DNA from: Streptomyces sp. T12
GTDB taxonomy: Bacteria > Actinomycetota > Actinomycetes > Streptomycetales > Streptomycetaceae
Reading direction: 5' to 3'
Assembly: GCF_028736035.1 (NCBI RefSeq)
Contig: NZ_CP117866.1
Coordinates: 10,829,001-10,893,000 of the forward strand
Length of the DNA stretch: 64,000 nucleotides
The notes under the pieces were generated by a model. The model had not been told where the DNA came from, made no database searches, and saw only the letters and a list, made by a program, of their open reading frames with translations. Below, in pieces: positions 1,005 through 25,359 of the stretch. Made by a program: the position numbers and the translations under genes. Numbering within the stretch: position 1 is the first letter of the stretch; each line of letters opens with the position of its first letter.

Positions 1005-2519
1005 ACCTTCATTCACCGCTTCATCGTGACTCCGCTGTACGCCAAGGCCTACCAGCAGGAGCCAAACTATGTGCAGTCTTGGCGGGACGTACCCAGCACG
1101 AGCTTCCGCCTTCGCGACATCGGGAGAACGAAAGACCTCGAGTTCAACTGGTTCGACTTTGACTCAGATGGTCGGGCTCACCTCAATCTGTGCCGAGTGC
1201 CGCGAGAATTCGGCGATGCGGATGCTCACAGGATGCTTGCGGAGCGTAAGCAAGAGGCGGAGGCCAATGCGGCCTATATCTTTGGGCGCCTTCTCCGTGC
1301 AGGTACGGTCAGTTGTGCAGCCGCACGCGTGCTGGCTGAATTCTGGATCGGCAGCTCCGAGGGGCGGGCCATCCTCGCTCCGCTGTTGCGGTCACGCTTC
1401 GCTGAGGTGATTGTCGACGAGGCGCAGGACTGCGGTCGCGAGGAGTTGCGCATCCTGGAGTTTCTCCGCGACTGCGGAGTGCACGTTGTGATGGTCGGCG
1501 ACATCGACCAGTCGATCTACGAGTTCCGGAGCGCCACACCTGCCGCCGTTCAGGAGTTCGCCACCAGCCTGCCCGGCCCGCTGGAGCTGAGAGATAACTG
1601 GCGCAGCTCGCCAGCCATTTGTGCGTTCAACAGTGCGTTGAGGTCCGGGCAGTTCGTCGAGACAGCTCGGGGCGACAACTCCATCGTTCAAACTCCGGTG
1701 CACTTGATCGAGTTCTCGTCTCTCGACCAGATCGTGCCCGCTGCTCTGGACGTTGCTGAACAGTACAAGCTGACCGCAGACGATTTGATGCTCCTGTCGC
1801 ACGCCGAGGTCCACGGTATGAAGGCGGCCGGCGTGGTGAGCCCCGAAAGCGTGGGAAGCAGCCGAGTCCTCGCCATCGCCAGCGCCGGGCTGAAGCTCAG
1901 GTCGCGGGAGACCGATCCGAAGACTCGTCGGAAAGCAGTGGATCAGGTACAGCGCGCTGTTCTGGCAGCCTTCACAGTGAACCAGAGGACGGAGCACCAC
2001 AGCTTCGATGCGTTGTGCGAGCAAGCAGGGGTCGAGCAGCGCTGGCTGGAGGCGTTTGCGGTCCGGATGGCGATCAGTCTCGATGCCGAGGGCCGGGCCA
2101 AACAGAAGTTCGCCGTCGAGGTTCGCGACTTCATGAAGACCGCGGACTGGGGCGACGTGGCACCTCCCAGTTCCAGCGACCTCGGCAAGCTGTTCAAGGC
2201 TCCGTCGGATGGGGCTTGGACAAGCGTCGCCAGCTTCGGCAACAGCCCAATGATCCGCTTCTCCACCGTGCACGGCGTCAAAGGCATGGAGTTCCCCGGC
2301 GTGGTGCTCGTCCTGCCGGAGAAGCTACGCGTAGATCGCATCACGGAGTGGACAGTCCTCGACGACTGGGAAGGCGGTCATGACACCGAGGCCCGGCGCG
2401 TCCTCTACGTGGCCGGCTCTCGGGCCCAGGAACTGCTGATGTGCGCGGTCCACCGCAGGCATGTCGCCCGAGTGGGGGCACTGCTCGACGCCAAGGGCGT
2501 CCCGTATGTCAGAACCTAG
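1005..2519 (+). pseudogene. UvrD/PcrA-type superfamily 1 helicase, 5'-truncated
   Basis: Counting from a GTG at 1026 the frame gives 497 residues with clear SF1A helicase motifs: DEAQD (Walker B, 131-135), GDIDQSIYEFR (158-168), NWRSS (191-195), VHGVKGMEF (about 415-423) and RRVLYVAGSRA (about 457-467). Walker A (GxGKT) and the start of domain 1A are absent. In-frame codons upstream of the GTG read GTFIHRFIV, which resembles the helicase Ia/Ib region, before a stop at 990-992. No ribosome binding site precedes the GTG. Without Walker A the product could not hydrolyse ATP normally. I read it as a gene that lost its 5' end; a dominant-negative or regulatory product is possible but unsupported. 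UvrD-type helicases occur in repair and in some defence systems; there is no nuclease partner here. Confidence 0.75.
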
Positions 2520-2910: not shown

Positions 2911-3546
2911 TTACAGAAGGCTGCTCCAGTACGGCCAGAAACGGGTGAGGACGAGCAGCACGATCACCCCGTACCAGGCGCCGAGGAGCATCCAGTGCGT
3001 GTCGCGGACGATATACAGCACGCCTCGGGGCACGGGGACGATGCCCCGTTCCATGCAGTGCACGGTGACGTACCAGAACAGGGCGATGGTCACGATCCAG
3101 ACGGCAGCGCAGTAGGGGCAGAGCTTGTTGAGCTCGTAGAGCGACTCCCCGATCAGCCAGTGTGCGAACGCCACCCCCACCAGCGCCCCGGCGTCCAGCG
3201 CGAGCCACAGCCGACGGTGCAGGCGCGCCCCGGAGAGCACGGCGATGCCCAGGGCGGTCACGGCGGCGAAGGCGCCCAGGCCGAGCAGCATGTTGGGGAA
3301 GCCGAGCAGGCTGCCCTGCGGGCTGGACATGACGCTGCCGCAGCTCACGACGGGGCTGATGTTGCAGGGCGGTTGGTAGGCCGGGTCCTTGAGGAGCCGC
3401 CAGTCGTCCACGGTGAGCTGGAAGGAGGCGAGCCAGCCGATGATCCCGGTGAGGACCATCACCCATCCCGTGCGGCGGCTCGCGCCCACCGTGTGCCGGT
3501 GCCGGGTGGGCGTGGCGGCCGGTGCGAGCGCGGGTCCGTGACTCAC
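2911..3546 (-). CDS. Vitamin K epoxide reductase (VKOR) family membrane protein
   Basis: A 211-residue polytopic membrane protein. Family Cys are all present: C61 and C69 in the first periplasmic loop (CNISPVVSC) and the redox pair C143/C146 in LCPYC. It should reoxidise disulfide-forming proteins outside the membrane using quinone. The GTG start at 3546 overlaps the narI TGA (GTGA), so it is translationally coupled to narI. An internal ATG 29 codons later is a weaker alternative. Its presence inside a nitrate reductase operon is unusual: NarI and VKOR both use the quinone pool, so it may sustain disulfide formation when O2 is low. That role is inferred; the family call is firm. Confidence 0.85.
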   Translation of the reverse strand: MSHGPALAPAATPTRHRHTVGASRRTGWVMVLTGIIGWLASFQLTVDDWRLLKDPAYQPPCNISPVVSCGSVMSSPQGSLLGFPNMLLGLGAFAAVTALGIAVLSGARLHRRLWLALDAGALVGVAFAHWLIGESLYELNKLCPYCAAVWIVTIALFWYVTVHCMERGIVPVPRGVLYIVRDTHWMLLGAWYGVIVLLVLTRFWPYWSSLL

Positions 3547-4325
3547 GCCGCTCGCCGGGAGCCGGAGGCCGACCGGGTCCGGCCCGCGGTCTTCGGGGCT
3601 GCCGTCGGTGTGGCTCGCCGCCGGTAGACCAGGTAGGGGCGGGCCAGGTATCCGATCGGGGCGCTCCACACGTGGACCAGCCGGGTGAACGGCCAGGCGG
3701 CGAAGAGCAGGAAGGCCGTCAGGGCGTGCAACTGGAACAGCAGCGGGGCTCCGGCGATCGCTTCGGGCTGGGGCTGGAGGACGAACAGGCCGCGGAACCA
3801 TACGGAGACGGTGGAGCGGTAGTCGTAGCCGGCGCCGAAGACGTTGTGGGCGGCGGTGGCGGTGATGCCGAGCAGGACGGTGGCGGAGAGCAGGGGGAAG
3901 AGGAGTTTGTCGCTGCGGTCGGTGCCGAGGCGGATCTGGCGGGTGAGCAGCCGGCGGGCGCACAGCATGCCGAGCCCGGCGACCATGGCGACGCCCGCGA
4001 CCGATCCCGCCCATACGGCTGTGGTGTGGTAGGCGTGCTCGGTGATGCCGACGGCCTCGGTCCACGCGTCGGGAATGGCGAGCCCCACGACATGGCCGGC
4101 GATCACCATGAAGGCGCCCAGGTGGAACAGGGGGCTGCCCCAACGCAGCCAGCGGTGTTCGAGGAGCTGGGTGGTGCGGGAGGTCCAGCCGAACTGGTCC
4201 TGGCGGTAGCGCCAGACGTGCCCGACCACGAACACGGCGAGGCAGATGTAGGGGACGGCGACCCACAGGAGAAGGTCGGCGCCGCTCGCCGAAGCGGCGG
4301 CCACGGGGGAGAGCGCGACGTTCAT
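3543..4325 (-). CDS. narI: Respiratory nitrate reductase gamma subunit (first operon)
   Basis: This 260-residue protein with five membrane segments is the cytochrome b subunit that anchors NarGH and passes electrons from menaquinol to NarH. All four expected heme ligands are visible: H68 and H78 in FHLGAFMVIAGH, and H200 and H218 in the last segments (FQLHALTAF and TRLVHVW). The signature HVWRYRQDQFGW follows the first membrane segment. It overlaps narJ by ATGA at 4322-4325 and VKOR by GTGA at 3543-3546. The C-terminus carries a basic tail rich in Arg and Thr beyond the usual end. It is the paralogue of the narI at 31401. Confidence 0.93.
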   Translation of the reverse strand: MNVALSPVAAASASGADLLLWVAVPYICLAVFVVGHVWRYRQDQFGWTSRTTQLLEHRWLRWGSPLFHLGAFMVIAGHVVGLAIPDAWTEAVGITEHAYHTTAVWAGSVAGVAMVAGLGMLCARRLLTRQIRLGTDRSDKLLFPLLSATVLLGITATAAHNVFGAGYDYRSTVSVWFRGLFVLQPQPEAIAGAPLLFQLHALTAFLLFAAWPFTRLVHVWSAPIGYLARPYLVYRRRATPTAAPKTAGRTRSASGSRRAA

Positions 4326-5113
4326 CGGGGGCCTTCCGTACGGCTGGTCGGGGTGGGCGGGACTCGGGTCGGCGGGGCCTGTACGGGCGGCACGAAGGTG
4401 CCCGGAGGTGCGAACTCCCCGTCTCCGTACGTCCCGTAGGGATCGAGGCCGACCTCCTCGTTCGGCGGGCCCTCGGCGACCAGCTGGGCCACCGCCGCGC
4501 GGTCCGCCTCGGTGGGCGGCGGCAGGAGGGTGAGCAGCGCGGCCAGGACGTGCCGGTAGGGGGAGTCCGAGTCGGTCAGCGCGCGGTGGATCAGCTCCAG
4601 CCCGCGCCGGTGCTGGCGCAGCGGCGCCTCGCCGCCGCCCGGACCCGCCAGGGCGGCGAACTCCAGCACGACCGGCAGGTGGTCGGGCAGCTCACCGCCG
4701 TCGGTGTCCCAGCCTGCGGCCCGATAGCGCTGGTTCAGGGTGAGCAGGGCCATGCCCCGGCGGCGGGTGTCGCCGTGCAGGTAGTAGGTGAGGTAGAGGC
4801 TGCTCTTGCGGCGCAGGTCGAACATCTCGACGTAGTGCCGCTCCAGCGCCTCCGGGTCCTGGCCGGCGAACCAGGTGGTGAAGGCGGCCAGGTGTTCGGC
4901 GGCGGGCGAGGGCGGCAGCGCTTCGGCGGTGGCCGTCAGCACCGGTCGCGCGGTGGTGAGTTCGGCGTCCGGGTACTGCAGCAGCAGCGAGCACAGCCGC
5001 AGCAGCAGGGTGCGGGTCTGGGCCTCTTCGGGGCTGAGCCGGGCCGGGCGGCGTACGGCCGCCCGGACGCGGGTGCGGACGAGGGCGGGGATGGTGGCGG
5101 GCAGCGGGCTCAC
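4322..5113 (-). CDS. narJ: Nitrate reductase assembly chaperone (first operon)
   Basis: A 263-residue soluble protein of the NarJ/TorD family, the private chaperone that holds NarGH while cofactor and Fe-S clusters are inserted. It is not part of the finished enzyme. Recognisable sequence: LLRLCSLLLQYPD near residue 36-48, and SLYLTYYLHGDTRRRGMALL in the middle. Typical NarJ proteins are 190-240 residues; the excess here is a Pro-rich tail after residue 225 and an Arg-rich start. The start overlaps the narH stop (ATGA) and the stop overlaps the narI start, so translation is coupled. The paralogue at 30757 lacks the N-terminal extension. Confidence 0.93.
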   Translation of the reverse strand: MSPLPATIPALVRTRVRAAVRRPARLSPEEAQTRTLLLRLCSLLLQYPDAELTTARPVLTATAEALPPSPAAEHLAAFTTWFAGQDPEALERHYVEMFDLRRKSSLYLTYYLHGDTRRRGMALLTLNQRYRAAGWDTDGGELPDHLPVVLEFAALAGPGGGEAPLRQHRRGLELIHRALTDSDSPYRHVLAALLTLLPPPTEADRAAVAQLVAEGPPNEEVGLDPYGTYGDGEFAPPGTFVPPVQAPPTRVPPTPTSRTEGPR

Positions 5114-6642
5114 GAGTGGCCTCCGGTGGTGTGGCGGCGCAGGGTGGGGATGCCGAGCATCACGCGTCGGCCACCGGCCTCGGCCGGGTCGCCGGACGAC
5201 TCGACCGGGCAGCGGTTCTCCATCGCGGTGAGCGCGGCGGCGTCCTCCTTGTGCGCGGCGGGGACGACGTACCGGTCGGCGTACTTGGCGACGGCGAGGA
5301 GGCGGTGCAGGTCTTCCGCCTCACGTGCGGTGAGACCCACCGCCTTGAGCGTGGCCTCGTCGCCGTCCTCACCGAGGGTGCGTTCGCGCATGTACGAGCG
5401 CAGGGCAGTGAGCTTCATGAGCACGCCGGCGACGACGTCGGTGTCTCCGGCCGTGAAGAGTTCCGCCAGGTACTCCAGCGGGATGCGCAGCCGGGTGACG
5501 GCGGCGAAGACGTGGTCGGGGTCGTCCTGGTTGCCGCCCGCCGCGTCGACGGCGTCGAGGACGGGGGAGAGCGGGGGCACGTACCAGACCATGGGCAGGG
5601 TCCGGTACTCCGGGTGCAGCGGCAGCGCGACCTTGTAGCGCATGACCAGGTCGTACACGGGGGAGCGGCGGGCCGCGTCCAGCCAGTCCTCGGGGATGCC
5701 CGACTCCCGTGCGGCCGCGATGACGTCGGGGTCGTACGGGTCGAGGAAGACGCCGCGCTGGGCGTCCAGCAGGTCGTGCTGGTCGGGGGTGGCGGCGGCC
5801 TCGCCGACGCGGTCGGCGTCGTAGAGGAGCAGGCCGAGGTAGCGCAGGCGGCCGACGCAGGTCTCGGAGCAGACGGTGGGCTGCCCGGCCTCGATGCGCG
5901 GGAAGCAGAAGGTGCACTTCTCGGCCTTGCCGGTGGCGTGGTTGACGTACACCTTCTTGTACGGGCATGCCGTCACGCACATACGCCAGCCACGGCAGCG
6001 GTCCTGGTCGACGAGGACGATGCCGTCCTCGACCCGCTTGTACATGGCGCCGGACGGGCAGGCGGAGACGCAGGCCGGGTTGAGGCAGTGTTCGCACAGG
6101 CGGGGCAGGTGGAAGAGGAAGGTCTGCTCGAACTCGAACTTGACCTTCTCGGCCCATTCCCCGGTCAGGTTGGGGTCGCCGCCGGCGTTCTCGGGTGCGC
6201 CGCCGAGGCCGTCCTCCCAGTTGGCGCCCCAGGTGATGGCGGTGGGCTTTCCGGTGAGGACGGAGCGGGGGCGGGCGACCGGGATGTCCTTGCCGGCCGG
6301 GGCGCTGACCAGGTTGTCGTAGTCGTAGGTGACCGGCTCGTAGTAGTCCTCGATGGACGGCAGGTCGGGGTTGGAGAACAGGGACAGGAGCCGCTTGATC
6401 CGGCCACCGGAGCGCAGCACCAGCCGTCCGCGCTTGTCGAGCATCCAGCCGCCCTTCCACTGCTCCTGGTCCTCGTAGCGGCGGGGGTAGCCGACTCCCG
6501 GCTTGGTCTCGACGTTGTTGAACCAGGCGTACTCGACGCCGGTGCGGTTGGTCCACGTCTGCTTGCAGGTGACCGAGCAGGTGTGGCAGCCGATGCACTT
6601 GTCGAGGTTCATCACCATGGCGATCTGAGCCATGACGCGCAT
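5110..6642 (-). CDS. narH: Respiratory nitrate reductase beta subunit (first operon)
   Basis: This 510-residue Fe-S electron-transfer subunit sits between NarI and NarG on the cytoplasmic face. Four Cys groups are visible: C16/C19/C22/C26 (CIGCHTCSVTC), CEHCLNPACVSACP, CRGWRMCVTACP and CTFCFP with CSETC. The Trp in CRGW replaces a Cys, as in known NarH proteins where that cluster is [3Fe-4S]. I start at the ATG at 6642 (MRVMAQ), one base after the narG stop. An in-frame ATG five codons upstream lies inside narG and is less likely; the second operon has the same junction. The C-terminal half contains VGLTAREAEDLHRLLAVAKY, typical of the NarH dimerisation domain. Confidence 0.95.
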   Translation of the reverse strand: MRVMAQIAMVMNLDKCIGCHTCSVTCKQTWTNRTGVEYAWFNNVETKPGVGYPRRYEDQEQWKGGWMLDKRGRLVLRSGGRIKRLLSLFSNPDLPSIEDYYEPVTYDYDNLVSAPAGKDIPVARPRSVLTGKPTAITWGANWEDGLGGAPENAGGDPNLTGEWAEKVKFEFEQTFLFHLPRLCEHCLNPACVSACPSGAMYKRVEDGIVLVDQDRCRGWRMCVTACPYKKVYVNHATGKAEKCTFCFPRIEAGQPTVCSETCVGRLRYLGLLLYDADRVGEAAATPDQHDLLDAQRGVFLDPYDPDVIAAARESGIPEDWLDAARRSPVYDLVMRYKVALPLHPEYRTLPMVWYVPPLSPVLDAVDAAGGNQDDPDHVFAAVTRLRIPLEYLAELFTAGDTDVVAGVLMKLTALRSYMRERTLGEDGDEATLKAVGLTAREAEDLHRLLAVAKYADRYVVPAAHKEDAAALTAMENRCPVESSGDPAEAGGRRVMLGIPTLRRHTTGGHS

Positions 6643-6643
6643 G

Positions 6644-9600
6644 TCAGTACTCCACATCCTGCGAGCGACGGCGAATCACGGTGACCTCGTCGCGCTGGTT
6701 GCCGGTCGGGCCGTAGTAGTTGAAGGCGTAGGTGAACTGGGCGTAGCCGCCCGCGAGGTGGGTGGGCTTGAGCAGCAGCCGGGTGAGGGAGTTGTGGATG
6801 CCGCCGCGCTTGCCGCTGACCTCGGTTTTCGGCACGTTCACGTTGCGGTCCTGGGCGTGGTACATGTACACGGTGCCCTCGGGCATGCGGTGGGTGACCA
6901 CGGCGCGGGCGGCGACGACGCCGTTGCGGTTGTAGGCCTCGATCCACTCGTTGTCCTTGACACTGATCTTCTCGGCGTCGGCGGTGGACATCCAGATCAC
7001 GGGGCCGCCGCGGGACAGGTCGAGCATGTACTTGTTGTCCTGGTAGTTGGAGTGGATGGACCACTTGGAGTGCGGGGTCAGATAGCGGACCGTGACCTCC
7101 GCCCGGCCGTTCTCGCGCAGCTGCTCATCGCCGTAGTGCTTGGGCGTGTTCAACGGAGGCCGGTAGACGGGTAGTTGCTCGCCGAGTTCGGCGATCCAGT
7201 CGTGCTGGACGAAGAAGTGCTGGCGGCCGGTGAGGGTGTGCCAGGGCTTGCGGTGCTCGACGTTGATCACGAACGGCGAGTAGCGGCGGCCACCGGTCTC
7301 GCTGCCCGACCACTCGTACGACGTCATCACCGAACGGGGCTGGGTGCGCGTGTCGGCGAACGTGATCCGCTCCGCCTCGCGCTCGGAGGCCAGTTCCACC
7401 AGGCCCTCGCTGCCGGTCCGGCTTTCCAGCACCCGGAACCCCTCCGTGGCCAGACGCCCGTTGGTGGTGCCGGACAGGGCGAGAATCGCCTCGCACATGT
7501 CGCTCGCGGTGGCCAGCGAAGGCCGGCCGGCGGCGATCCCTTCTCGTACGGTCCCGTTGCGGCTCTGCAGTTCCTCGATCTCCTGGTTCGGGTGGACGGT
7601 GACACCCTTGGTGGTCGTGCCCAATGTGTCCAGCAGCGGACCGACCGCGCGCATCTTCTGCGCGATCGCGGCGTAGTCCCGCTCGATGACGACGAGCTTC
7701 GGCATGGTGCGGCCCGGGATCGGCTCGCACTCGCCCGTCTTCCAGTCCCGTACGACGCCCCCCGGCTGGGCGAGTTCGTCGGGGGTGTCGTGCAGCAGCG
7801 GTACGGCGAGGACGTCGGTGCGGGTGCCGAGGTGCTCGGCGGCGAGTTCGCTGAACTTGTCGGCGATGGTCAGGAAGGTGTCGTAGTCGGTGCGGGCCTG
7901 CCAGGGCGGGGCGATGGCCGGGGTGAAGGCGTGCACGAAGGGGTGCATGTCCGTGCTGGACAGGTCGTCCTTCTCGTACCAGGTGGCGGCGGGGAGGACG
8001 ACGTCGGCGAGCAGGCCGGTGGAGGTCATCCGGAAGTCCATGGTGACGAGCAGGTCGAGCTTGCCCTCGGGGGCCTCCTCCCGCCACACCACGTCCTTCG
8101 GGCGTCCCTCGGGCGGGGTCTCCTCGGAGCGGACGGCCGCGTCCGTGCCCAGCAGGTGGCGCAGGAAGTACTCGTTGCCCTTGCCGGAGGAGCCGAGCAG
8201 GTTGGCTCGCCACACGGTCAGTACGCGGGGGAAGTTGGCCGGGTCGTCGGGGTCCTCGGCGGCGAACCGCAGCCGCCCGGACTTCAGCTCGTCGACGATG
8301 TGCTCGGCGACCTCACGCCCTTGAGCCTTCGCCTCGTCCGTCAGGTCCAGCGGGTTGCGGTTGAAGCCCGGGTGTCCCGGTGTCCAGCCCAGCCGCACGG
8401 CCTGCGCCAGGCAGTCGGCGAACCCCTTGCCCTGGAACCGTCCCTTCCCCAGCGGGGAGGCGAGCTCGTCGGGCCCGAACGCCTCGTAGCGCCACTGGTC
8501 GGAGTTCAGGTACCAGTAGGAGGTGCCCGCCATGTGCCGGGTGGGCCGCTGCCAGTCGAAGGCGAACGACAGGTGCTGCTGTCCGGTGACCGGGCGGACC
8601 TTCTCCTGGCCGACGTAGTGCGCCCAGCCGCCGCCGTTGACGCCCTGGCAGCCGGTCATGGTGGTCAGCGCCAGGAAGGCGCGGTAGATGGTGTCGGAGT
8701 GGAACCAGTGGTTGGTGCCGGCGCCGAGGGCGATCATGGACCGGCCGTTGGTGCGCTCGGCGTTGCGGGCGAACTCGCGGGCGATGCGGGCGGCCTGCTC
8801 GGCGGGCACGGAGGTGATGGTTTCCTGCCAGGCCGGGGTGTACGGCTCGGAAGCGTCCTTGTACGACGACGGCCAGCTGCCCGGCAGCCCGGGACGCCGC
8901 ACACCGTACTGGGCGAGCATCAGGTCGAAGACGGTGGTGACGAGCCGTCCGCCGATCCGGCGGACCGGAACGCCCCGGACCATGACCGAACCGCCCTCGG
9001 TGCCGCCCTCGTCGAACCGGGGCAGCGCGATCTCGACGGTCTCGTCGGCCCGCTCCAGCAGGCTCAACTCCGGCATGACATCGCCCAGTTCGAGATTCCA
9101 GCGGCCTCGCCCGGCCTCCCCCCACCGGAAGCCGAGCGAGCCGCCCGGGACCACCGGATCGCCGGTGGCCCGGTCCAGGAGAACCGTCTTGGACTCGGCG
9201 TGTTCTTCTTCACGGCCGAGATCGGCAGCGGTGAGGAACCCGTCGGGGACAAGACCGTGGTCGTGCTCGCGCAGGGTCACCAGGAATGGCGCGTCGGTGA
9301 ACTTGCGCATGTAGTCCTGGAAGTACGGCACTTCGCGGTCGACCAGGAACTCGCGCAGGATCACATGCCCCATGGCCATCGCCAGCGCGCCGTCCGTGCC
9401 GGGGTGCGGGGCCAGCCACTCGTCGGCGTGCTTGACGTTGTCGGCGTAGTCGGGGCTGACCGCGACGACCTTGGTGCCGTTGTAGCGGGTCTCGGTGAGG
9501 AAGTGTGCGTCCGGCGTGCGGGTCACGGGGATGTTGGAGCCCCACATGATCAGATATCCGGCGTTCCACCAGTCCGCCGCCTCCGGTACGTCCGTCTGGT

Positions 9601-10342
9601 CGCCGAAGACCTGCGGGGAGGCGATCGGCAGGTCGGCGTACCAGTCGTAGAACGACAGCAGGGTGCCGCCGATCAGCGAGTGGAACCGCGCCCCGGCCGC
9701 GAACGACGCCATCGACATCGCCGGGATCGGCGAGAAGCCCGCGACGCGGTCGGGGCCGTACGCCTTGACGGTGTGCACCTGGGCGGCGGCGACCAGCTCG
9801 CTCACCTCGTCCCAGCCGGCGCGCACCAGCCCGCCCTTGCCGCGGGCCCGCTTGTACGCCCGCGCTTTCGCCGGGTCACCGGTGATCTCGGCCCAGGCAG
9901 CCACCGGGTCACCGAGCCGTCGCCGGGTCTCGCGCCACAGCTTCAGCAGCGCACCCCGCACGTACGGGTAGCGGACCCGGCTGGGCGAGTAGGTGTACCA
10001 GGAGAACGACGCCCCGCGCGGGCAGCCGCGCGGCTCGTACTCGGGGCAGTCCGCGCCGATCGACGGGTAGTCGGTGGCCTGGTGCTCCCAGGTGATGATC
10101 CCGTCCTTGACGTACACCATCCACGAACACGAACCGGTGCAGTTCACCCCGTGCGTGGAGCGCACCACCTTGTCGTGCGACCAGCGGTCCCTGTAGAAGC
10201 CCTCCCACTTCGGGTCGCCTGTGCCGAACACGGCGCGTCCGTCGGCGGACACCTCGCGGCGGGTGAGCAGCCTGCGGGCGGCCAGCGGCCAGCTTTCACC
10301 GGCGCGCAGCGCCTCACGCCGTACGTTCTGATCGTTCTCCAT
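6644..10342 (-). CDS. narG: Respiratory nitrate reductase alpha subunit, Mo-bisMGD catalytic (first operon)
   Basis: A 1232-residue catalytic subunit reducing nitrate to nitrite. Near the N-terminus H64-x3-C68-x3-C72 with C107 forms the FS0 [4Fe-4S] site, which has a His ligand in NarG. YADLPIASPQVFGDQTDVPE carries the Asp that ligates molybdenum. No twin-arginine signal is present, so the enzyme faces the cytoplasm and needs nitrate import; NarK is encoded at 23291. I chose ATG 10342 (MENDQN); a GTG 12 codons upstream (10378) is possible. First gene of narGHJI-VKOR-DUF6457. A DevR/OsdR-like inverted repeat lies about 100 bases upstream (10436-10450). Closely related to the narG at 25360. Confidence 0.95.
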   Translation of the reverse strand: MENDQNVRREALRAGESWPLAARRLLTRREVSADGRAVFGTGDPKWEGFYRDRWSHDKVVRSTHGVNCTGSCSWMVYVKDGIITWEHQATDYPSIGADCPEYEPRGCPRGASFSWYTYSPSRVRYPYVRGALLKLWRETRRRLGDPVAAWAEITGDPAKARAYKRARGKGGLVRAGWDEVSELVAAAQVHTVKAYGPDRVAGFSPIPAMSMASFAAGARFHSLIGGTLLSFYDWYADLPIASPQVFGDQTDVPEAADWWNAGYLIMWGSNIPVTRTPDAHFLTETRYNGTKVVAVSPDYADNVKHADEWLAPHPGTDGALAMAMGHVILREFLVDREVPYFQDYMRKFTDAPFLVTLREHDHGLVPDGFLTAADLGREEEHAESKTVLLDRATGDPVVPGGSLGFRWGEAGRGRWNLELGDVMPELSLLERADETVEIALPRFDEGGTEGGSVMVRGVPVRRIGGRLVTTVFDLMLAQYGVRRPGLPGSWPSSYKDASEPYTPAWQETITSVPAEQAARIAREFARNAERTNGRSMIALGAGTNHWFHSDTIYRAFLALTTMTGCQGVNGGGWAHYVGQEKVRPVTGQQHLSFAFDWQRPTRHMAGTSYWYLNSDQWRYEAFGPDELASPLGKGRFQGKGFADCLAQAVRLGWTPGHPGFNRNPLDLTDEAKAQGREVAEHIVDELKSGRLRFAAEDPDDPANFPRVLTVWRANLLGSSGKGNEYFLRHLLGTDAAVRSEETPPEGRPKDVVWREEAPEGKLDLLVTMDFRMTSTGLLADVVLPAATWYEKDDLSSTDMHPFVHAFTPAIAPPWQARTDYDTFLTIADKFSELAAEHLGTRTDVLAVPLLHDTPDELAQPGGVVRDWKTGECEPIPGRTMPKLVVIERDYAAIAQKMRAVGPLLDTLGTTTKGVTVHPNQEIEELQSRNGTVREGIAAGRPSLATASDMCEAILALSGTTNGRLATEGFRVLESRTGSEGLVELASEREAERITFADTRTQPRSVMTSYEWSGSETGGRRYSPFVINVEHRKPWHTLTGRQHFFVQHDWIAELGEQLPVYRPPLNTPKHYGDEQLRENGRAEVTVRYLTPHSKWSIHSNYQDNKYMLDLSRGGPVIWMSTADAEKISVKDNEWIEAYNRNGVVAARAVVTHRMPEGTVYMYHAQDRNVNVPKTEVSGKRGGIHNSLTRLLLKPTHLAGGYAQFTYAFNYYGPTGNQRDEVTVIRRRSQDVEY

Positions 10343-10747: not shown

Positions 10748-11581
10748 ATGAGCGTGCTCACCCTCGCCTCGGCCCCCGAAGACGCCACGGCCCTCGAAGC
10801 CGCTGAGGCGCATCACGCCCGCTTGGCCGGGGAGTTGGCCGGGCGGGTGAGGATGCTGCTGACCGCCGTGGACCGCGACCCCAGCGCCGCCGAGAAGATC
10901 CATGCCGGTCTCGTGGCCTTCTGTGACCGTGCACTGCTGCCGCACGCCACCGCCGAGGAGGCCGTGCTCTACCCCGCCGCCCACGGCCTGCCCGAGGCCC
11001 GCCTGCTCATCGAGAGTCTCATCGGCGAACACCACTGCCTCACCGCGCTCGTCGACGCCCTACGCTCCGCGCCCAGCCCGGCGGGCGCGGCGGCCGACGC
11101 CCGGGCCCTTCAGGTGCTCTTCGAAGAGCACGTGGCCAAGGAGAACGGCCTCGTGCTGCCCCTGCTCGCCATGACGTCGGAGGTCTCCCTGGCGGAGCTG
11201 CTCGCGGAGATGCATCACCGGCTCGCGGGCGACACGGGCAACACCAGCGCTCAAGAAGATCAGGACACCGAGGAAGGACTGGCCATGCGAGAAGGGCAGA
11301 TCGAGGAGACCGGCGGTTGCGGCGGGGTATGCGGCTGCGGTGGTGCGGAGGAGACGGCCGAGCCCGAACTGGACGTGCGGGAGGTTCCGCACGCCCTGCG
11401 TCACGCCACGGTCTTCGGCGCCCTGGACGCCGTTCCGGCGGGCACCGCGATGGTGCTCGTCGCACCGCACGACCCGCTGCCGCTGCTCGCGCAGATCGAA
11501 CAGCGCAGCCCTGGCGTCTTCTCGGTGGAGTACCTGGAACGCGGCCCCGAGACCTGGCGGCTGCGGCTCAGCCACCGCTGA
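10748..11581 (+). CDS. Hemerythrin-domain protein fused to a DUF2249 domain
   Basis: 277 residues in two domains. Residues 15-155 are a hemerythrin-type four-helix bundle with metal-binding His/Glu in HHARLAG, LLPHATAEEAVLYP, GEHHCLTALV and FEEHVAKENGLVLP, expected to bind a di-iron site that senses or stores O2 or NO. A linker follows with a Cys/Gly cluster (GGCGGVCGCGG, around 196-206), then residues 215-277 match DUF2249, a TusA-like fold. ATG 10748 has a GGAG ribosome site. It lies divergently from narG and upstream of the nitrite reductase-like genes, so a role in NO or O2 handling during nitrate respiration is plausible. The Cys-rich linker could hold a metal or cluster; this is inference. 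Confidence 0.8.
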   Translation: MSVLTLASAPEDATALEAAEAHHARLAGELAGRVRMLLTAVDRDPSAAEKIHAGLVAFCDRALLPHATAEEAVLYPAAHGLPEARLLIESLIGEHHCLTALVDALRSAPSPAGAAADARALQVLFEEHVAKENGLVLPLLAMTSEVSLAELLAEMHHRLAGDTGNTSAQEDQDTEEGLAMREGQIEETGGCGGVCGCGGAEETAEPELDVREVPHALRHATVFGALDAVPAGTAMVLVAPHDPLPLLAQIEQRSPGVFSVEYLERGPETWRLRLSHR

Positions 11582-11696: not shown

Positions 11697-12200
11697 ATGG
11701 ACGGATCGCACCGTCGGGCCGGCACCCTGCTCGGGACAGTCGGCATAGCCCTGGCAGCGGCAGGGCCGGTCATGGTGTGGCGTGGCCGCAGCGGCAGGAA
11801 GGAGATCCGTGCCGAACTGGCCGCCCAGAAGATCACCTTCCCCGAGCGCGGGCTGCCCGCCGAACTCGCCGCCCACGCCGGCCGCCGTGTGGAAACCGGA
11901 CCCGAGGCACACGCCTACGCCGAGTTCATCAAGGGCAATCTCGCCCACGCCACCGGCGGCCGTACCTATGCCGAGATCAGCGCTGAGCTGCACGCCGCCG
12001 GAGGCGACGACGACAAGCTCGCCGAGCTGCGCCAGACCGCGTTCATGGGTCAGTCCCTGCGCGCCTCGCTGATGTCCGCCCACCAGGCATGGCACCTCAC
12101 GACCTTGGTCACGGGCCTGGGCGCCGCACTGACCGGCCTGGGTGTCGCCTTGGTGGCCACCGCTGACGCCCTGACACCCTGCTCTTCGAATCGCCCCTGA
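11697..12200 (+). CDS. Small membrane protein, actinobacterial 'LigA'-labelled family
   Basis: A 167-residue protein with a hydrophobic segment at residues 8-27 and another near the C-terminus (about 133-155). Between them is a soluble region with KITFPERGLPAEL, AGRRVETGPEAHAYAEFI and TYAEISAEL. This pattern is familiar from actinobacterial proteins often labelled 'aromatic ring-opening dioxygenase LigA', a label not supported by any visible dioxygenase motif. I chose ATG 11697; the open frame extends upstream but overlaps the previous gene. It follows the hemerythrin gene by 115 bases. Function unknown; both termini probably lie on the same membrane face. Confidence 0.6.
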   Translation: MDGSHRRAGTLLGTVGIALAAAGPVMVWRGRSGRKEIRAELAAQKITFPERGLPAELAAHAGRRVETGPEAHAYAEFIKGNLAHATGGRTYAEISAELHAAGGDDDKLAELRQTAFMGQSLRASLMSAHQAWHLTTLVTGLGAALTGLGVALVATADALTPCSSNRP

Positions 12201-12581: not shown

Positions 12582-13865
12582 ATGAGGACCGCCACCCATG
12601 CCATCCGTCGCCAGCGGCACAACGCGGGGGAACGGCCGTTCATCATCATCTGGGAGTCCACGCGGGCCTGTCCGCTGGCCTGCCTGCACTGCCGCGCCGA
12701 AGCCGTGCCCGACCGCGACCCGCGCGAGCTGGACACCACCGCCGCCAAGGACCTGCTGCACCAGGTGGCCGCCTTCGGGCAGCCCGCCCCCCTGTTCGTC
12801 ATCACCGGAGGCGACCCGTTCCAGCGCCCCGACCTGACCGAGCTCATCGCTTACGGCCAGGAGGTCGGCGTCCGGGTCGCGGTGTCGCCGTCCGGTACGC
12901 CGACGCTCACTGCGGAGCGGCTGCGCGAGGTGCACGCGGCGGGTGCGGTGGGGCTCTCGCTGAGCCTGGACGGCTCCACCGCAGAGCTGCACGACGACTT
13001 CCGCGGGGTGCCCGGGGTGTTCCGGTGGACTCTGGACGCCTGGGACGCGGCGCGCGCCCTCGGGATGAAGGTGCAGATCAACACCACGGTCGCCCGGCAC
13101 AACCTGCATGACCTCCCGGACATCGTCCGTCTGGTCGCCGAGCACGGGGCGATGCTGTGGAGCGCCTTCTTCCTGGTGCCCACCGGTCGTGGCCGCAGCC
13201 TGGGCGCGTTGACCGCGGGCGAGGTGGAGGACGTCCTCAACTTCGTCTACGACGTGGGCCTGACCGTGCCGGCGAAGACCACCGAGGCCCACCAATTCCG
13301 CCGCGTCGCCCTGCAACGCCAAATCCTCGCCGCCACCGGCGACGACCATGTGGCGGTACTCGAACTCGGCCCGCTCTACCGGGAGTTGACCGAGCGGGCC
13401 GCCGAGCTGGGCCTGGCGGCCGGAGCGCGCCGGGTGCGGCGCCCGCCGCTGGACGTCAACGCGGGCCGCGGCTTCGTCTTCATCTCCCACACCGGCACCG
13501 TGCATCCCAGCGGGTTCCTGCCGCTGGGTGCCGGCAGCGTGCGCGAGACGCCGCTGACGGAGATCTACCGCACCTCGGAGCTGTTCACCGGTCTGCGGGA
13601 CCCCGACCAGCTCGGGGGCCGGTGCGGAGCGTGCGAGTTCCGCCGGGTCTGCGGCGGCTCGCGGTCCAGGGCGTACGGCGTCACCGGCGACCCGTACGCC
13701 GAGGAGCCCTGGTGCGGCTACGTCCCCGGCTCCTTCCCGCACCAGCGGGAACTGGCCGCGCTGCTGTCCGACGGCGCCGCCGCGGAGGACGGGCCGGTCC
13801 CCCGGCACAGTGCGTCCCACGAGAACCGGGGCCGGAGTTCGACCAAGCACCAAGGAGTGGCATGA
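12582..13865 (+). CDS. Radical SAM/SPASM protein, TIGR04053-like
   Basis: A 427-residue radical SAM enzyme. The [4Fe-4S]/SAM site is C30-x3-C34-x2-C37 (CPLACLHC), followed by the glycine motif TGGDPF at about 74-79. A C-terminal SPASM-like region has CGACEFRRVCGG and a further Cys in EEPWCGY, enough for an auxiliary cluster. The family resembles NirJ/AhbD-like heme-modifying and PqqE-like enzymes and corresponds to TIGR04053 as I recall it; substrate unknown. The stop overlaps the ATG of the copper protein (ATGA at 13862-13865), so the two are made together. That suggests a job in maturing or supplying a cofactor for the nitrite reductase-like protein or its redox partners. Confidence 0.8.
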   Translation: MRTATHAIRRQRHNAGERPFIIIWESTRACPLACLHCRAEAVPDRDPRELDTTAAKDLLHQVAAFGQPAPLFVITGGDPFQRPDLTELIAYGQEVGVRVAVSPSGTPTLTAERLREVHAAGAVGLSLSLDGSTAELHDDFRGVPGVFRWTLDAWDAARALGMKVQINTTVARHNLHDLPDIVRLVAEHGAMLWSAFFLVPTGRGRSLGALTAGEVEDVLNFVYDVGLTVPAKTTEAHQFRRVALQRQILAATGDDHVAVLELGPLYRELTERAAELGLAAGARRVRRPPLDVNAGRGFVFISHTGTVHPSGFLPLGAGSVRETPLTEIYRTSELFTGLRDPDQLGGRCGACEFRRVCGGSRSRAYGVTGDPYAEEPWCGYVPGSFPHQRELAALLSDGAAAEDGPVPRHSASHENRGRSSTKHQGVA

Positions 13866-16528
13866 CCAGCATCGCCAGTGGGCCCACCGGGACCGGCGAC
13901 GTGAGCGGGCCCGGCAAGGGCGACGCGAGCGGTCCCGGCAAGTACCCGAACAGGTTCAGGGCGTCCGGCGTGAAGGCCCGGCATCTGCGCGCCCACGTCC
14001 TGGTCATGGGGTGGCTGGCGTTGGCCCTGCTGGCGGTCGCGGCGCAGGACTCGCTGCCGGTGGCCCGCTGGCTGGCTGTGCACATGTTCCTGCTCGGTGC
14101 CGTCACCACCGCCATCCTCATCTGGAGCGAGCACTTCGCCGTTGCCCTGCTGCACGCGAAGATCCCCGACGCACGAGGGAGCGCCACCCGGCTCGCGACG
14201 GCCAACCTCGCCGTGGCCGGGCTGCTCATCGGAGTGTGGACCGCCCAGCCCGTGCTGACCGCAATCTCCGCCGCGCTGCTGGTGGCCGCGGCCACCGCGC
14301 ACTTGATGATGCTGATCCGCCTGAGGCGGGGCGCGCTCGGCGGGCGGCTCAAGCCGATCGTCTCCTACTACCAGGCGGCCATAGCGGCTCTGATCGCCGG
14401 TGCCGTCCTCGGCTGGCTGCTGGCCACCGGCGGCGCTGGAGGCCCCGACCGGTACGCCGGGCTGCGCTTGGCGCACATCCACGTCACGCTGCTCGGCTGG
14501 ATCGGGCTGCCGGTCCTGGGCACGCTGTTCATGCTGTGGCCGACCGTGCTGGGCGTTCGGATGAAGGACCGCACCACCAAGGTGTCCCGATGGGTGCTGT
14601 GGCTCACCGGCAGCGGACTGCTGGTGGCCATCGCCGCGCTGGCCCTCGGCTGGCGCTGGCCGGCCGCGGCGGGCCTCGCCCTCTACGCGGACGGAGCGGC
14701 CCTCGCCGTCAACCTGTTCGTCCGTACCGTACGCGGCAACCGGCCCGTCTCCGCGGCGGCGGCCTGGATGCTCGCCGCGGCCACCTGCTGGCTGCTGATC
14801 GCGGTGGCGGCGGACCTCGCATGGCTGGCCGCCCGGCCGCTCGCGGCGGCACAGACCGGGATCGACACACTGCTCCCGGTGCTGCTCATCGGCTTCGTCG
14901 CCCAGATCCTGATCGGCGCGCTCACCTATCTGCTCCCGGTCGTCCTCAGCACCGGCCCGAAGGACCGTGCGGCCGTACGGGCGCTGCTCGAACGGGGCTG
15001 GCTGCCGCGACTGGTGGCGCTCAACACCGGTGTCGCACTGGCGGCACTCCCGCTGCCCGGACCGGCCGCCACGACCGGCATGCTGCTGGCCGCGCTGGCC
15101 GGGGCCGCGTTCCTCACCCTCGCGGTGCCCGTGCTCGTCCACAGCGGCCGGAGGCTGTCGCCGGATGCAGGCGCGGACGGCGTGTCACGGCGCCCGGCCC
15201 TGTGGGGCACCGCTGCGGGCGCCGTACTGACCGTTCTGGCCGTGCTCGTGGCCAACAGCGGCGGGGGCGCGATTGGCGAGACGGCCGCTGCCGGGACGGC
15301 GGGTGCGGGCTCCGGGACCACCCGCACGGTTGCCGTCACGCTGGCGGACATGCGCATCCGCCCGGCCCGCATCGAGGTCGCGGCAGGCACCGCGCTGCGG
15401 CTGAAGGTCACCAACACCGATGCCCAGCGCCACGACCTCAAGGTGGAGGACGGCCCCGCCACCCCGATGCTCGCCCAGGGCGACACCCGTGTACTCGACC
15501 TCGGGCAGGTCACCGAGAACCGCGAGGCGTGGTGCACCCTGCCGGGACACAAGGCGGCCGGAATGACCATGAACATCGTCGTGAAAGACGAGAAGGACGA
15601 CACGGCGACGGACAGCAGCGGACACGACGGGCACACGCCCGCCGCCGACGACGCCGGCCTGGACCTCTCCGCCGACTTCTCCACCGGCTGGCAGTCACGC
15701 GACGCCGACCTCGCCCCCGCACCCGGCGGAACGGTCCACAGGGTCGAGCTGCACGCCGCCCACACCACGGTCGAAGTGGCCCCGGGCGTGAAGCAGCAGA
15801 TGTGGACCTTCGGCGGCATTGCACCCGGCCCCACCCTGCGCGGCAAGGTCGGCGACGTCTTCGAGGTCACCCTCGTCAACGACGACCACGGCATGGGCCA
15901 CGGCATCGACTTCCACGTCGGCTCCCTCGCCCCCGACCAGCCCATGCGCACCCTCGACCCGGGCGAACGCCTGGTCTACCGCTTCCGCGCCGAGAAGGCC
16001 GGAGCCTGGCTGTACCACTGCAGCACCAAACCGATGCTCCAGCACATGGGCAACGGCATGTACGGCGCCATCGTCATCGACCCGCCCGGCCTCGCGAAGG
16101 TGGACCACGAATACGTGCTGGTCTCCTCCGAGCTCTACCTCGGCAAGCCCGGCAGCACAGCCCAGGTGACGAAGATGCGTCAGAACACCCCGGACGCCTG
16201 GGCGTTCAACGGCATCGCCAACCAGTACGCCCAGCAGCCCCTGAAGATGAAGCCCGGTGAGCGGGCCCGCTTCTGGGTGGTCGCCGCCGGACCCAGCGAC
16301 GGCATCGCCTTCCACGTCGTCGGCACCGTCTTCGACACCGTGTACAAGGAGGGCGCCTACCTGCTCAAACCGAACCAACCGGGCGGAGCCCAGGTACTGG
16401 ACCTGGCCCCAGCACAGGGCGGTTTCGTCGAGACGACGTTCCCCGAGGCCGGCCACTACCCGTTCGTCGACCACGACATGCGCCACGCCGAAGCCGGCGC
16501 CCACGGCATGGTGGAGGTGAGCAAGTAG
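13862..16528 (+). CDS. Membrane-anchored copper nitrite reductase-like multicopper protein
   Basis: 888 residues in three parts. Residues 40-455 hold about 11-12 membrane segments, including HIHVTLLGWIGLPVLG, a His-rich helix seen in oxidase-like membrane proteins. Residues 470-575 are a cupredoxin with type 1 copper ligands (H near 523, CTLPGHKAAGM near 557-567). Residues 595-888 are a two-domain CuNiR-like unit: HGIDFH (about 679-684), YHCSTKPMLQHMGNGMYG (about 717-735) and a second-domain His in AFHVVGTVF (about 817). NirK has this order of type 1 and type 2 copper ligands, so nitrite to NO is likely, with the extra cupredoxin passing electrons from the membrane. ATG 13862 has an AGGAG site. 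A longer upstream frame exists but overlaps the radical SAM gene. Another copper oxidase function is possible. Confidence 0.8.
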   Translation: MTSIASGPTGTGDVSGPGKGDASGPGKYPNRFRASGVKARHLRAHVLVMGWLALALLAVAAQDSLPVARWLAVHMFLLGAVTTAILIWSEHFAVALLHAKIPDARGSATRLATANLAVAGLLIGVWTAQPVLTAISAALLVAAATAHLMMLIRLRRGALGGRLKPIVSYYQAAIAALIAGAVLGWLLATGGAGGPDRYAGLRLAHIHVTLLGWIGLPVLGTLFMLWPTVLGVRMKDRTTKVSRWVLWLTGSGLLVAIAALALGWRWPAAAGLALYADGAALAVNLFVRTVRGNRPVSAAAAWMLAAATCWLLIAVAADLAWLAARPLAAAQTGIDTLLPVLLIGFVAQILIGALTYLLPVVLSTGPKDRAAVRALLERGWLPRLVALNTGVALAALPLPGPAATTGMLLAALAGAAFLTLAVPVLVHSGRRLSPDAGADGVSRRPALWGTAAGAVLTVLAVLVANSGGGAIGETAAAGTAGAGSGTTRTVAVTLADMRIRPARIEVAAGTALRLKVTNTDAQRHDLKVEDGPATPMLAQGDTRVLDLGQVTENREAWCTLPGHKAAGMTMNIVVKDEKDDTATDSSGHDGHTPAADDAGLDLSADFSTGWQSRDADLAPAPGGTVHRVELHAAHTTVEVAPGVKQQMWTFGGIAPGPTLRGKVGDVFEVTLVNDDHGMGHGIDFHVGSLAPDQPMRTLDPGERLVYRFRAEKAGAWLYHCSTKPMLQHMGNGMYGAIVIDPPGLAKVDHEYVLVSSELYLGKPGSTAQVTKMRQNTPDAWAFNGIANQYAQQPLKMKPGERARFWVVAAGPSDGIAFHVVGTVFDTVYKEGAYLLKPNQPGGAQVLDLAPAQGGFVETTFPEAGHYPFVDHDMRHAEAGAHGMVEVSK

Positions 16529-16974
16529 TGGACACCGTCGGCTGGTGGTCCCTGGTGCGGTTCGCGCATGTGGCCGGTGCCGCCCTGTGGGTCGGTGGGC
16601 AGTTGGCCCTTTCCCTGGTGATCCTGCCGCTGGCCCGCCATCTGCTGGCCCCGGAGGCCAAGGCCAGCTTCACCGCAGCGGCCGGCCGCCGGTTCGGAAT
16701 GCTGACAGGGGCGGTGTTCCTGCCCGTGCAGCTGGCCACCGGCTGGGCCATGGCCTGGCACAGGGGAGTCACCTGGGCTTCCCTCGCCGAACCCGGCTAC
16801 GGCCGCACCCTGGCCACCAAACTCGCCCTCTTCGTGGTCGTGATGCTCGCCGCGGCCGGCCACGGCATCGCCCACGCCAAGGGCCGCGCCGACCTGGCCC
16901 GGTCCCTGGCGGTCGTCTCCCTCGTCGGCTCACTCGGAGTCGTCCTGCTGGCCACGGCTCTGCCTGCCACCTGA
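16528..16974 (+). CDS. CopD-like small membrane protein
   Basis: A 148-residue protein with four predicted membrane segments. The first reads LVRFAHVAGAALWVGGQL, with the HxxAxxxWxGG pattern of CopD and related b-type membrane proteins, and further His occur in AWHRGV and AAGHGIAHAKG. The GTG start shares one base with the TAG of the nitrite reductase-like gene, so the two are coupled. By position it may bind copper or heme for the copper enzyme. No Cys is present. The family call rests on the membrane pattern, not on a catalytic motif. Confidence 0.65.
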   Translation: MDTVGWWSLVRFAHVAGAALWVGGQLALSLVILPLARHLLAPEAKASFTAAAGRRFGMLTGAVFLPVQLATGWAMAWHRGVTWASLAEPGYGRTLATKLALFVVVMLAAAGHGIAHAKGRADLARSLAVVSLVGSLGVVLLATALPAT

Positions 16975-17010: not shown

Positions 17011-18037
17011 ATGCGCACCCAAGTCCTGCCGGACACGGCCACCGTGCAGTCGCTCCTGACGGCCGCCGTGGCAGCCCCGTCGATCCACAACACGCAGCCC
17101 TGGCGCTTCCGCCTGGACCCCCACCGCCAGGTACTGGAGGTCCACTCGGCGCCGGAGCGAACCCTGCCACTGACCGACCCGATGCACCGCGCCCAGTATC
17201 TGTCCGTAGGCGCCGCGGTCTTCAACCTTCGGCTCGCCGCCGTCCACCAGGGCTGGCGACCCGAGGTGAAACTGCTGCCGGATCCACACGAACCCGGACT
17301 GCTGGCCGCCGTACGACTGACCGGTCCGCTCGGCGAGGAAGACCAGCCGTCGGACCCTGACCTCTACGAGGCCATCACACGGCGGCACACGAGCCGGATG
17401 CCGTTCACCGGCCGCCCGGCGCCCGGCGCCCGAGCCGATCGTGGCGGAGATGGCGTCGGCAGCGCACGCCGCCGGCGCCCGCCTGCACATCCCGGACATC
17501 GCCGGAACACGGCGGCTGCTGCGTCTGACCGCCGCAGCCGAGGCACGTAACCACGCCCATCCGGACCGCACCGCCGAAACCCTCACCTGGATCAACGCCC
17601 CAGGAACGAGCACCCCCTACGGCATACCCGCCACCGCCCTCGGCCCGCCCGACGCGGCCGGGCGGATGCCGATGCGCAACTTCCCCGGCGCACTGCCCGC
17701 CCTCCGCCTGCCCGCCCTGTGGTTCGAACGCCACGTCCAGCTCGCCCTGCTGTGGACACCCCACGACCGGCGGGAGGACTGGCTGCGGGCCGGCCAGGCC
17801 CTGCAGTACGTCCTGCTCACGGCGACCGCCCGCGGGCTGCGCACCTCACTCCTGCACCAGGCCATGGAATGGCCCGACCTGCGGTCCGCAACAGCTCTCC
17901 CACGACACAAGCGGTGCCATCCGCACGTACTGATCCGATTCGGCTACGGCCCGGATGGCGTCGGCACACCGCGAGAATCCGGGCACTCCGTTGCTCGTCC
18001 CGCAGGACCGCCCGCAACCGATACGGAACCGGGCTGA
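17011..18037 (+). pseudogene. Acg-type FMN-binding nitroreductase, frameshifted
   Basis: Two adjoining frames together encode a roughly 340-residue Acg-family nitroreductase. The first (17011 onward) has APSIHNTQPWRF and ends its homology at RRHTSRMPFTGRPAP; the second, from about 17430, continues with EPIVAEMASAAHAAGARLH and ends at 18037. The switch lies in the repetitive GGCGCCCGGCGCCCGAG stretch near 17418-17432 and is a single-base-type shift. Acg (Rv2032) of M. tuberculosis is a DosR-regulated member, in keeping with this neighbourhood. Start ATG 17011 follows an AGGAAGAG site, 36 bases after the CopD-like gene. Either a real inactivation or a read error in GC-rich sequence. Confidence 0.75.
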
Positions 18038-23170: not shown

Positions 23171-23290
23171 TGCCTCCGGTGAGTCCTGATGCGGACAGTG
23201 GTGACGTGACGCCGTTCTGCAGGCAAGGGGCCTGCGGTGCGCGTGCGATCCCGGTGGCGCAGTACCACCATGAGGAAAGGGACGGACAAC

Positions 23291-24571: not shown

Positions 24572-24618
24572 GGGCGAGCGGACGAGAACGACGGGCCGAG
24601 GAACAAGGGAGTAGACCG

Positions 24619-25092: not shown

Positions 25093-25126
25093 AAAGTCCG
25101 CCCGCCAACGTCGACGGGGCAGCACT

Positions 25127-25181
25127 CCTGCAAAGCCCCGTACCCCCGCTCACCCCGAGCGGGGGTACGGGGCTTTGCAGG
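25127..25181 (+). terminator. Strong hairpin after the narK-hemerythrin pair
   Basis: A 24-base perfect stem (25127-25150 with 25158-25181) around a 7-base loop follows the hemerythrin stop by 35 bases and separates it from narG. The stem is symmetric and could act in either direction. Confidence 0.85.
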
Positions 25182-25263
25182 CGAGGGCATGGCCAGGCGG
25201 TGCCGGGATACCCCGGCACGCAGGCGATCTCGACCAAACCGCGCGTTGTTCGTGGTGTGGCTG

Positions 25264-25294: not shown

Positions 25295-25359
25295 CGTGTG
25301 CTGGCGGAACCGATCACAATTCGAACGGGTGCCCGTGGTGCCCGGGGCGGAGTGGCACG

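Follow-up and report, generated by a model that had tools for sequence, protein, structure and literature searches.

What does a radical S-adenosylmethionine (SAM) enzyme do when its gene overlaps that of a membrane-bound copper nitrite reductase (CuNiR)? The question is raised by a stretch of 64,000 nucleotides (hereafter the window) from the 11.46-Mb, high-GC genome of Streptomyces sp. T12 (C1:10829001-10893000), in which the stop codon of a radical SAM/SPASM gene shares 4 nt (ATGA) with the start of nirK, while the stop of nirK shares 1 nt with the GTG start of a gene for a CopD-like membrane protein (Table 1). This head-to-tail arrangement was correctly described in the original prediction, made from the same DNA, which went on to propose that the radical SAM protein is NirK's own maturation factor, a tempting label that our reading corrects. 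According to our analysis, the radical SAM protein is probably an AhbD-like, oxygen-independent, SAM-dependent coproheme decarboxylase, which would supply heme b in nitrate respiration. Firmicutes and Actinobacteria finish heme with the peroxide-needing ChdC, and the question of heme synthesis without oxygen becomes directly testable for Actinobacteria now that a named family is linked to it by operons, tree and phenotype.

The SPASM-type radical SAM assignment of the original prediction stands, the protein exceeding the cut-off of TIGR04053 (488.7 bits vs. 395), with AhbD (TIGR04545, 308.8 bits) as second-best family and NirJ2 (197.1 bits) as third. Against TIGR04053, none of the other radical SAM proteins of the genome exceeds 62.9 bits, AhbC/NirJ1-like proteins reaching about 200. 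Moreover, it carries a CX3CX2C motif and a C-terminal CX2CX5CX20C motif, the same as those given for M. barkeri AhbD in the accessible text of PMC3942049. In a midpoint-rooted tree of 50 sequences, 41 rows of TIGR04053 type (members and near relatives, some of them unscored) form one branch (98/97) and three AhbD rows another (99/97), these 44 rows being split (100/100) from six NirJ, AhbC and pseudo-SAM rows, and within Streptomyces the nirK-linked form adjoins the nar-linked form. By family score and tree, the radical SAM protein belongs to a tetrapyrrole-enzyme branch next to AhbD. The same tree contains an oddity, a TIGR04053 protein from a plasmid record of 2894 bases (L124, Campylobacter jejuni FORC_084), which is encoded along with a molybdenum-cofactor guanylyltransferase, groups with Deinococcus and may be contaminant sequence.

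The distribution of the radical SAM gene and of nirK was examined across 199 Streptomyces genomes, drawn evenly, counting NirK at E ≤ 1e-30 (at most four candidates scored per genome) and TIGR04053 above its cut-off (at most nine). This NirK occurs in 16 genomes and TIGR04053 in 23, 15 having both, one nirK only, eight the radical SAM gene only and 175 neither (Fisher p = 5.6e-16, kinship uncorrected). Wherever both occur (15/15), they adjoin each other, the distance between them ranging from -20 to +7 nt (nearest start codon), so that the arrangement is not due to chance; the CopD-like gene directly follows nirK in 16/16 loci, window included. The three-gene order, which the original prediction proposed to check in other genomes, is therefore conserved, within a single Streptomyces clade.

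Such close association is what might be expected of a factor dedicated to maturing the NirK fusion or installing its cofactors, but we consider this role very improbable in view of the remaining loci. Eight of the 23 radical SAM loci lack this nirK, and all eight adjoin nar genes: six (L103, L106-L110) show narI, then the radical SAM gene, then cgoX (NarI and CgoX above their cut-offs in all six, NarJ scored in two), while in the other two (L104, L105) the radical SAM gene is divergent from narG. Conversely, no radical SAM gene adjoins four paralogous loci for membrane NirK (L111-L114, in three genomes), the sixteenth nirK genome (G350, locus L102) keeps NirK and CopD beside a radical SAM remnant of 69 residues, and two non-Streptomyces genomes (G038 and G288, at most six candidates scored per genome) have a match to the full-length membrane fusion and no TIGR04053 above the cut-off. 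The reverse loss is seen in G418 (L210, 7885-9186), where NirK is devoid of nearly all its membrane domain (the match covers residues 441-887 plus about 27 residues of that domain), and the radical SAM and CopD-like genes are still present. Finally, to our knowledge, CuNiRs are not known to need a radical SAM enzyme. As for narG, it is present in the fetched stretch at 22 of the 23 radical SAM loci and belongs to an adjacent nar operon at 20, where two small genes at most intervene; the exceptions are L207 (narG fragment only), L208 (none upstream) and L211 (none at all). In the window, the first nar operon (narI-narJ-narH-narG, 3543-10342) runs on the opposite strand, just upstream of the plus-strand radical SAM-nirK group. 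From this distribution, the constant partner of the radical SAM gene in Streptomyces is nar, not NirK.

A second line of evidence comes from heme genes. The extra cgoX of the six nar gene rows deserves attention because, in the accessible text of PMC6620371, cgoX of Streptomyces coelicolor failed to complement a Staphylococcus aureus strain in anoxia. Among 296 actinobacterial genomes (at most six candidates scored per genome), 27 have TIGR04053 above the cut-off. In G007, hemE-hemH-cgoX-chdC is followed, in the same orientation and at a distance of about 350 nt from chdC, by the radical SAM gene; G010 has this gene divergent from hemE-hemH, cgoX and hemA being close; and G139 has it immediately downstream of cgoX. 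A Chloroflexi metagenome-assembled genome (L199) shows the order hemB-chdC-hemE-radical SAM-cgoX-hemH, in which HemE, CgoX and HemH are above their cut-offs, the ChdC-like protein is not (132 vs. 235 bits) and hemB is named by resemblance only. Likewise, five haloarchaeal loci have a CgoX-like gene downstream, above the TIGR00562 cut-off in L139, L147 and L218 (the only one scored at full length) and just under it in L143 and L196. More generally, of 24 actinobacterial loci outside Streptomyces, three lie beside coproporphyrin-pathway genes, five beside a gene for a NirJ1/AhbC-like radical SAM protein and one shows a hemA match at a distance of about 8 kb.

Five of the 27 carriers have no ChdC that we could find (G073, G010, G157, G135, G129). 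Two of them, G010 and G135, have HemH, neither ChdC nor HemF, and no HemN or AhbA/B above the cut-offs, and TIGR04053 is the only candidate found for their last heme step. G129 has AhbA/B and no HemH was found, so that TIGR04053 would there serve as the AhbD of a siroheme route; G073 and G157 have no HemH or a HemH fragment. In the genome of the window, hemE, cgoX and chdC lie within about 7 kb of each other, 2.5 Mb from the window, with hemH elsewhere; AhbA/B are not found (no PF17805 match), nor is the siroheme-pathway context of AhbD (AhbA/B plus AhbC).

A phenotype is available from Haloferax volcanii. According to the accessible text of PMC5746218, deletion of ahbD (HVO_2144) blocks only anaerobic growth (denitrification, dimethyl sulfoxide), heme rescues it (partially under denitrification, to near parent level on dimethyl sulfoxide), deleting PitA, the ChdC protein, leads to slower aerobic growth, and ahbD is surrounded by nirK, halocyanin genes and norB. 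Nitrogen-oxide reductase genes surround the TIGR04053 gene in 10 of our 11 Haloferax loci, and seven of these loci (L128-L132, L134, L135) have the order nirK..radical SAM-halocyanin..norB, which equals HVO_2141..2144(ahbD)-2145..2147. Against TIGR04053, two Haloferax proteins reach 497 and 502 bits, and H. volcanii is among three genomes of a control panel matching at E ≤ 1e-80, two of which, not told apart, are above the cut-off. Across 72 haloarchaeal loci, 32 have a match to a nitrogen-oxide reductase probe nearby, and 43 to such a probe or to DUF2249/halocyanin.

Several observations nevertheless weigh against a coproheme decarboxylase. The protein misses the AhbD cut-off of 500 bits, and four cysteines of the AhbD rows (in GC, FCFISH, PCGY and GGCRARAY; two such rows were in the alignment) are replaced in it and in the Haloferax orthologs, the FC position alone reappearing in a few TIGR04053 members, e.g., L061 and L173. 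A second auxiliary cluster has been reported for AhbD, which would then be missing in the window protein. We found no measured activity for any protein filed as TIGR04053, and the link between HVO_2144 and this family rests on synteny rather than on HVO_2144's own sequence. ChdC is present in 22 of the 27 actinobacterial carriers (vs. 163 of the 296 genomes overall), which fits an oxygen switch without proving it, and the genomes devoid of ChdC are drafts, so that absences may be gaps. Furthermore, 15 of the 24 actinobacterial loci outside Streptomyces show, by our probes, no heme genes and no partner of NirJ1/AhbC type (some stretches being short), and 29 of the 72 haloarchaeal loci match none of the denitrification probes.

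Two further points against it each suggest another reading. In Thermus (L120), the TIGR04053 gene lies beside a cytochrome cd1 nitrite reductase gene (PF02239, 370 bits), which, along with the five actinobacterial pairings with NirJ1/AhbC-like proteins, would suit an enzyme acting on another tetrapyrrole, for example a NirJ-like one in heme d1 synthesis; in a second Thermus locus (L225), the neighbor is merely annotated as "nitrite reductase". We hold this for improbable, a shade more so than the reading considered next, since the tree joins the radical SAM protein to AhbD and away from NirJ/AhbC, since the neighboring nitrite reductase of Thermus HB5018 is a CuNiR and the radical SAM gene stays, since the NirK found in Haloferax and at the window locus does without heme d1, and since TIGR04053 would act as AhbD in G129.

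The strongest rival is a peptide or protein maturase, whose target would be the CGCGG protein in haloarchaea (TIGR03995, "putative rSAM-modified RiPP" in NCBIfam, i.e., a ribosomally synthesized and post-translationally modified peptide) and, in Streptomyces, the CGCGG stretch of the protein with hemerythrin HHE and DUF2249 domains. CGCGG frames occur in 41 of 97 non-actinobacterial loci, and in 18 of the 97 on the same strand within 1 kb of the radical SAM gene, 15 of these 18 being at most 170 nt upstream of it; two such proteins, the ones scored, exceed the TIGR03995 cut-off (145 and 131 bits vs. 70). In the window, the HHE-DUF2249 protein carries a GGCGGVCGCGG stretch, as in 6 of 15 related loci. 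Yet, on visual inspection, five of the 41 (L146, L191, L204, L224, L225) seem spurious, and CGCGG frames are absent from all eight nar-only Streptomyces loci and from the other 24 actinobacterial loci. The window's first 40 kb contain a single CGCGG frame, the HHE-DUF2249 linker, whose protein has no TIGR03995 match, and HHE proteins with a full CGCGG also occur in L111 and L113, which have no adjoining radical SAM gene, their genomes having one elsewhere. A maturase would moreover leave unexplained the heme gene rows, the pairing with cgoX and the heme-rescued ahbD phenotype, and the nearest sequence branches act on tetrapyrroles. Altogether, we regard it as unlikely. The haloarchaeal CGCGG protein could itself have a role tied to heme rather than be a RiPP. 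It clusters with TIGR04053 in haloarchaeal loci among L118-L226, often along with DUF2249 proteins and denitrification genes.

If the radical SAM protein is a coproheme decarboxylase, the following scenario can be drawn. Streptomyces would make its coproheme through the coproporphyrin pathway, for which hemE, cgoX, hemH and chdC are present at other places of the genome, no AhbA/B having been found. Heme b is carried by NarI. During nitrate respiration without oxygen, ChdC would be deprived of its oxidant, and heme b for NarI would therefore be finished by the radical SAM protein standing in for it: a 5'-deoxyadenosyl radical would take hydrogen from two coproheme propionates, CO2 would leave and vinyl groups would form. 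The product would go to NarI and perhaps also to the membrane domain of NirK. In evolutionary terms, the radical SAM gene travels with the respiratory nitrate reductase, its end having come, in the clade of the window, to overlap nirK, then followed by the CopD-like gene. A wider proposal is possible, and we put it forward tentatively, as rather less likely to hold in full than to fail in some part: TIGR04053 would be the missing oxygen-independent coproheme decarboxylase of bacteria using the coproporphyrin pathway, forming in some Streptomyces, with a dedicated CgoX, an anaerobic heme branch inside a nitrate-respiration operon, and, for the clade of the window, providing heme b to NarI as well as to the heme-copper-oxidase-like membrane domain of NirK (H74, H205), which would be one quinol-to-nitrite enzyme with its own electron path.

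NirK itself is, as originally predicted, a fusion of membrane, cupredoxin and CuNiR domains. Pfam recognizes Cupredoxin_1 (residues 484-549) and Copper-bind (521-575), residues 627-887 or so are homologous to CuNiR (E about 2e-43 against the Geobacillus enzyme), and the last 260 residues align with the Geobacillus and other solved CuNiRs. In an alignment of 11 rows, the farthest being 37% identical, H680, C720, H728 and M733 (which we take to be the type 1 copper ligands), H685, H719 and H871 (presumably type 2), and D683 and H818 (presumably catalytic) are invariant in all rows, as are H524, C558, H563 and M568 of the cupredoxin. NirK thus has the full type 1 and type 2 ligands together with the catalytic Asp and His of a copper nitrite reductase. 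It misses the TIGR02376 cut-off (149.2 vs. 296.3 bits), but the same is true, at 154 bits, of a Thermus protein with an E 4e-255 match to the solved CuNiR 6hbe.

The part ahead of the cupredoxin contains 11 hydrophobic segments, of which two could each accommodate a pair of helices, so that the hydropathy reading predicts about 13 helices. The domain was originally said to be multi-helix and His-rich: the helices are borne out, whereas the richness amounts to three histidines, H74, H147 and H205, kept in 50/50 rows; in a set of 13 rows including two separate-gene forms, H74 and H205 are invariant and H147 is absent from one. From these two or three kept histidines, we infer that the domain may hold heme. 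It is weakly COX1-like (PF00115, 17.6 bits, below the gathering score of 34.8). A proven heme-copper oxidase it is not, given the sub-cut-off PF00115 score and an hhalign probability of 0.9% with qNor; an internal threefold repeat was also discarded, hhalign between the thirds being weak (E 0.00077, 0.014 and 0.44). No PDB relative was found by sequence at E ≤ 1. A quinol-to-nitrite role is plausible, in which the membrane domain would probably pass electrons from quinol to the cupredoxin and on to the type 1 copper, NirK reducing nitrite to NO outside the membrane. The membrane domain also exists as a separate frame beside cupredoxin-NirK or related multicopper frames (G172:C96, G097:C27, G140:C48, G051:C1), and named relatives of the whole fusion are abundant in Mycobacterium, Mycolicibacterium, Rhodococcus and Streptomyces.

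The third gene was announced as coding for a CopD-like protein overlapping the end of nirK; the overlap and the gene order hold, while the family assignment falls short, as the window protein misses PF05425 (23.3 bits vs. a gathering score of 32.1). A HemJ-like identity was rejected for want of a UPF0093 match in the window protein; its relative in G135 has a weak one (14.3 vs. 34.2 bits). In that distant actinobacterium, without ChdC as far as found, a TIGR04053 gene lies beside a CopD-like gene (L049, 353-1907; PF05425, 51.4 bits), hence the pairing recurs outside Streptomyces.

How does the system compare with those already known? With AhbD (M. barkeri Mbar_A1458, H. volcanii HVO_2144), the radical SAM protein shares a neighboring tree branch, both motifs and a setting among heme or denitrification genes, the Haloferax proteins at the HVO_2144 position even scoring as TIGR04053; it differs in its TIGR04545 score, in the replaced cysteines and in the coproporphyrin-pathway origin that its coproheme would have in Streptomyces. 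With ChdC (HemQ), it would have substrate and product in common, and the two genes stand in one row in G007; ChdC, however, is from an unrelated protein family and requires H2O2, as given in the accessible text of PMC10965808. The original prediction knew of no characterised example, which may hold for biochemistry but not for the fusion, since the three-part membrane-cupredoxin-CuNiR architecture is already in print for the actinobacterial NirK of Propionibacterium acnes type (PMC4770552, accessible text), from which the window differs by the overlap of nirK with the radical SAM gene and by the CopD-like gene that follows. A further comparison class is that of the heme-copper oxidase homology proteins, including NnrS. 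Proteins of NnrS type resemble the NirK membrane domain in their roughly 12 helices, weak COX1 similarity and two or three kept histidines; the window domain is set apart by the missed COX1 cut-off, the non-significant qNor profile comparison and the lack of a solved relative by sequence.

The idea of an oxygen-independent decarboxylase is partly anticipated, because a 2023 review citing Dailey 2015 (PMC10548856, accessible text) places ahbD beside hemY/hemH/hemQ. Our literature search, with most subscription papers outside its scope, found no paper mentioning "TIGR04053" and no account of this family as a coproheme decarboxylase or in gene rows with nar or nirK. As far as searched, the function proposed for the whole family, the nar-radical SAM-cgoX rows of Streptomyces and the overlap with the membrane NirK are new.

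Table 1. Features of the window around the radical SAM-nirK group.
Feature	Position	Strand	Remarks
narI, heme b subunit of nitrate reductase 1	3543..4325	-	TIGR00351, 196.2 bits (cut-off 105.55)
narJ	4322..5113	-	TIGR00684, 120.9 bits (cut-off 59.35)
narH	5110..6642	-	open reading frame conserved beside narG in related loci; named by position and sequence, without family scoring
narG	6644..10342	-	open reading frame conserved in related loci; named by position and sequence, without family scoring
Hemerythrin HHE + DUF2249 protein	10748..11581	+	PF01814, PF10006; GGCGGVCGCGG linker
Protein with no recognized domain, between HHE-DUF2249 and radical SAM genes	11697..12200	+	start codon uncertain; no above-cut-off match in Pfam search
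Radical SAM/SPASM gene (TIGR04053)	12582..13865	+	427 aa, ATG start; proposed oxygen-independent coproheme decarboxylase (heme b synthase)
Membrane domain-cupredoxin-CuNiR fusion (actinobacterial NirK)	13862..16528	+	888 aa
NirK membrane domain	13985..15265	+	residues ~42-468, from hydropathy and conservation; ~13 predicted helices
NirK cupredoxin domain	15311..15586	+	residues 484-575; H524, C558, H563, M568
NirK CuNiR domain	15734..16522	+	residues 625-887, from alignment to solved CuNiRs and invariance
CopD-like small membrane protein	16528..16974	+	148 aa, GTG start; sub-cut-off PF05425

Beyond these features, Rfam and tRNA scans of the window gave no matches. Just after the CopD-like gene (17011-18037), a gene for an Acg/Rv3131-like FMN (flavin mononucleotide) oxidoreductase lies in two overlapping frames, which match profile positions 2-134 and 128-313, and appears frameshifted. 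Further on, four genes at about 25360-32168 resemble a second narGHJI operon, with no radical SAM gene directly beside, and the region 23237-32168 also holds a NarK-type transporter and, by eye, a hemerythrin-like protein. Finally, the nar genes are followed (36365-51786) by genes for OsmC, universal stress proteins, a cation ATPase, an aldehyde/alcohol dehydrogenase fusion and a CBS-BON protein, a set that we take to be reminiscent of a hypoxia or dormancy regulon.

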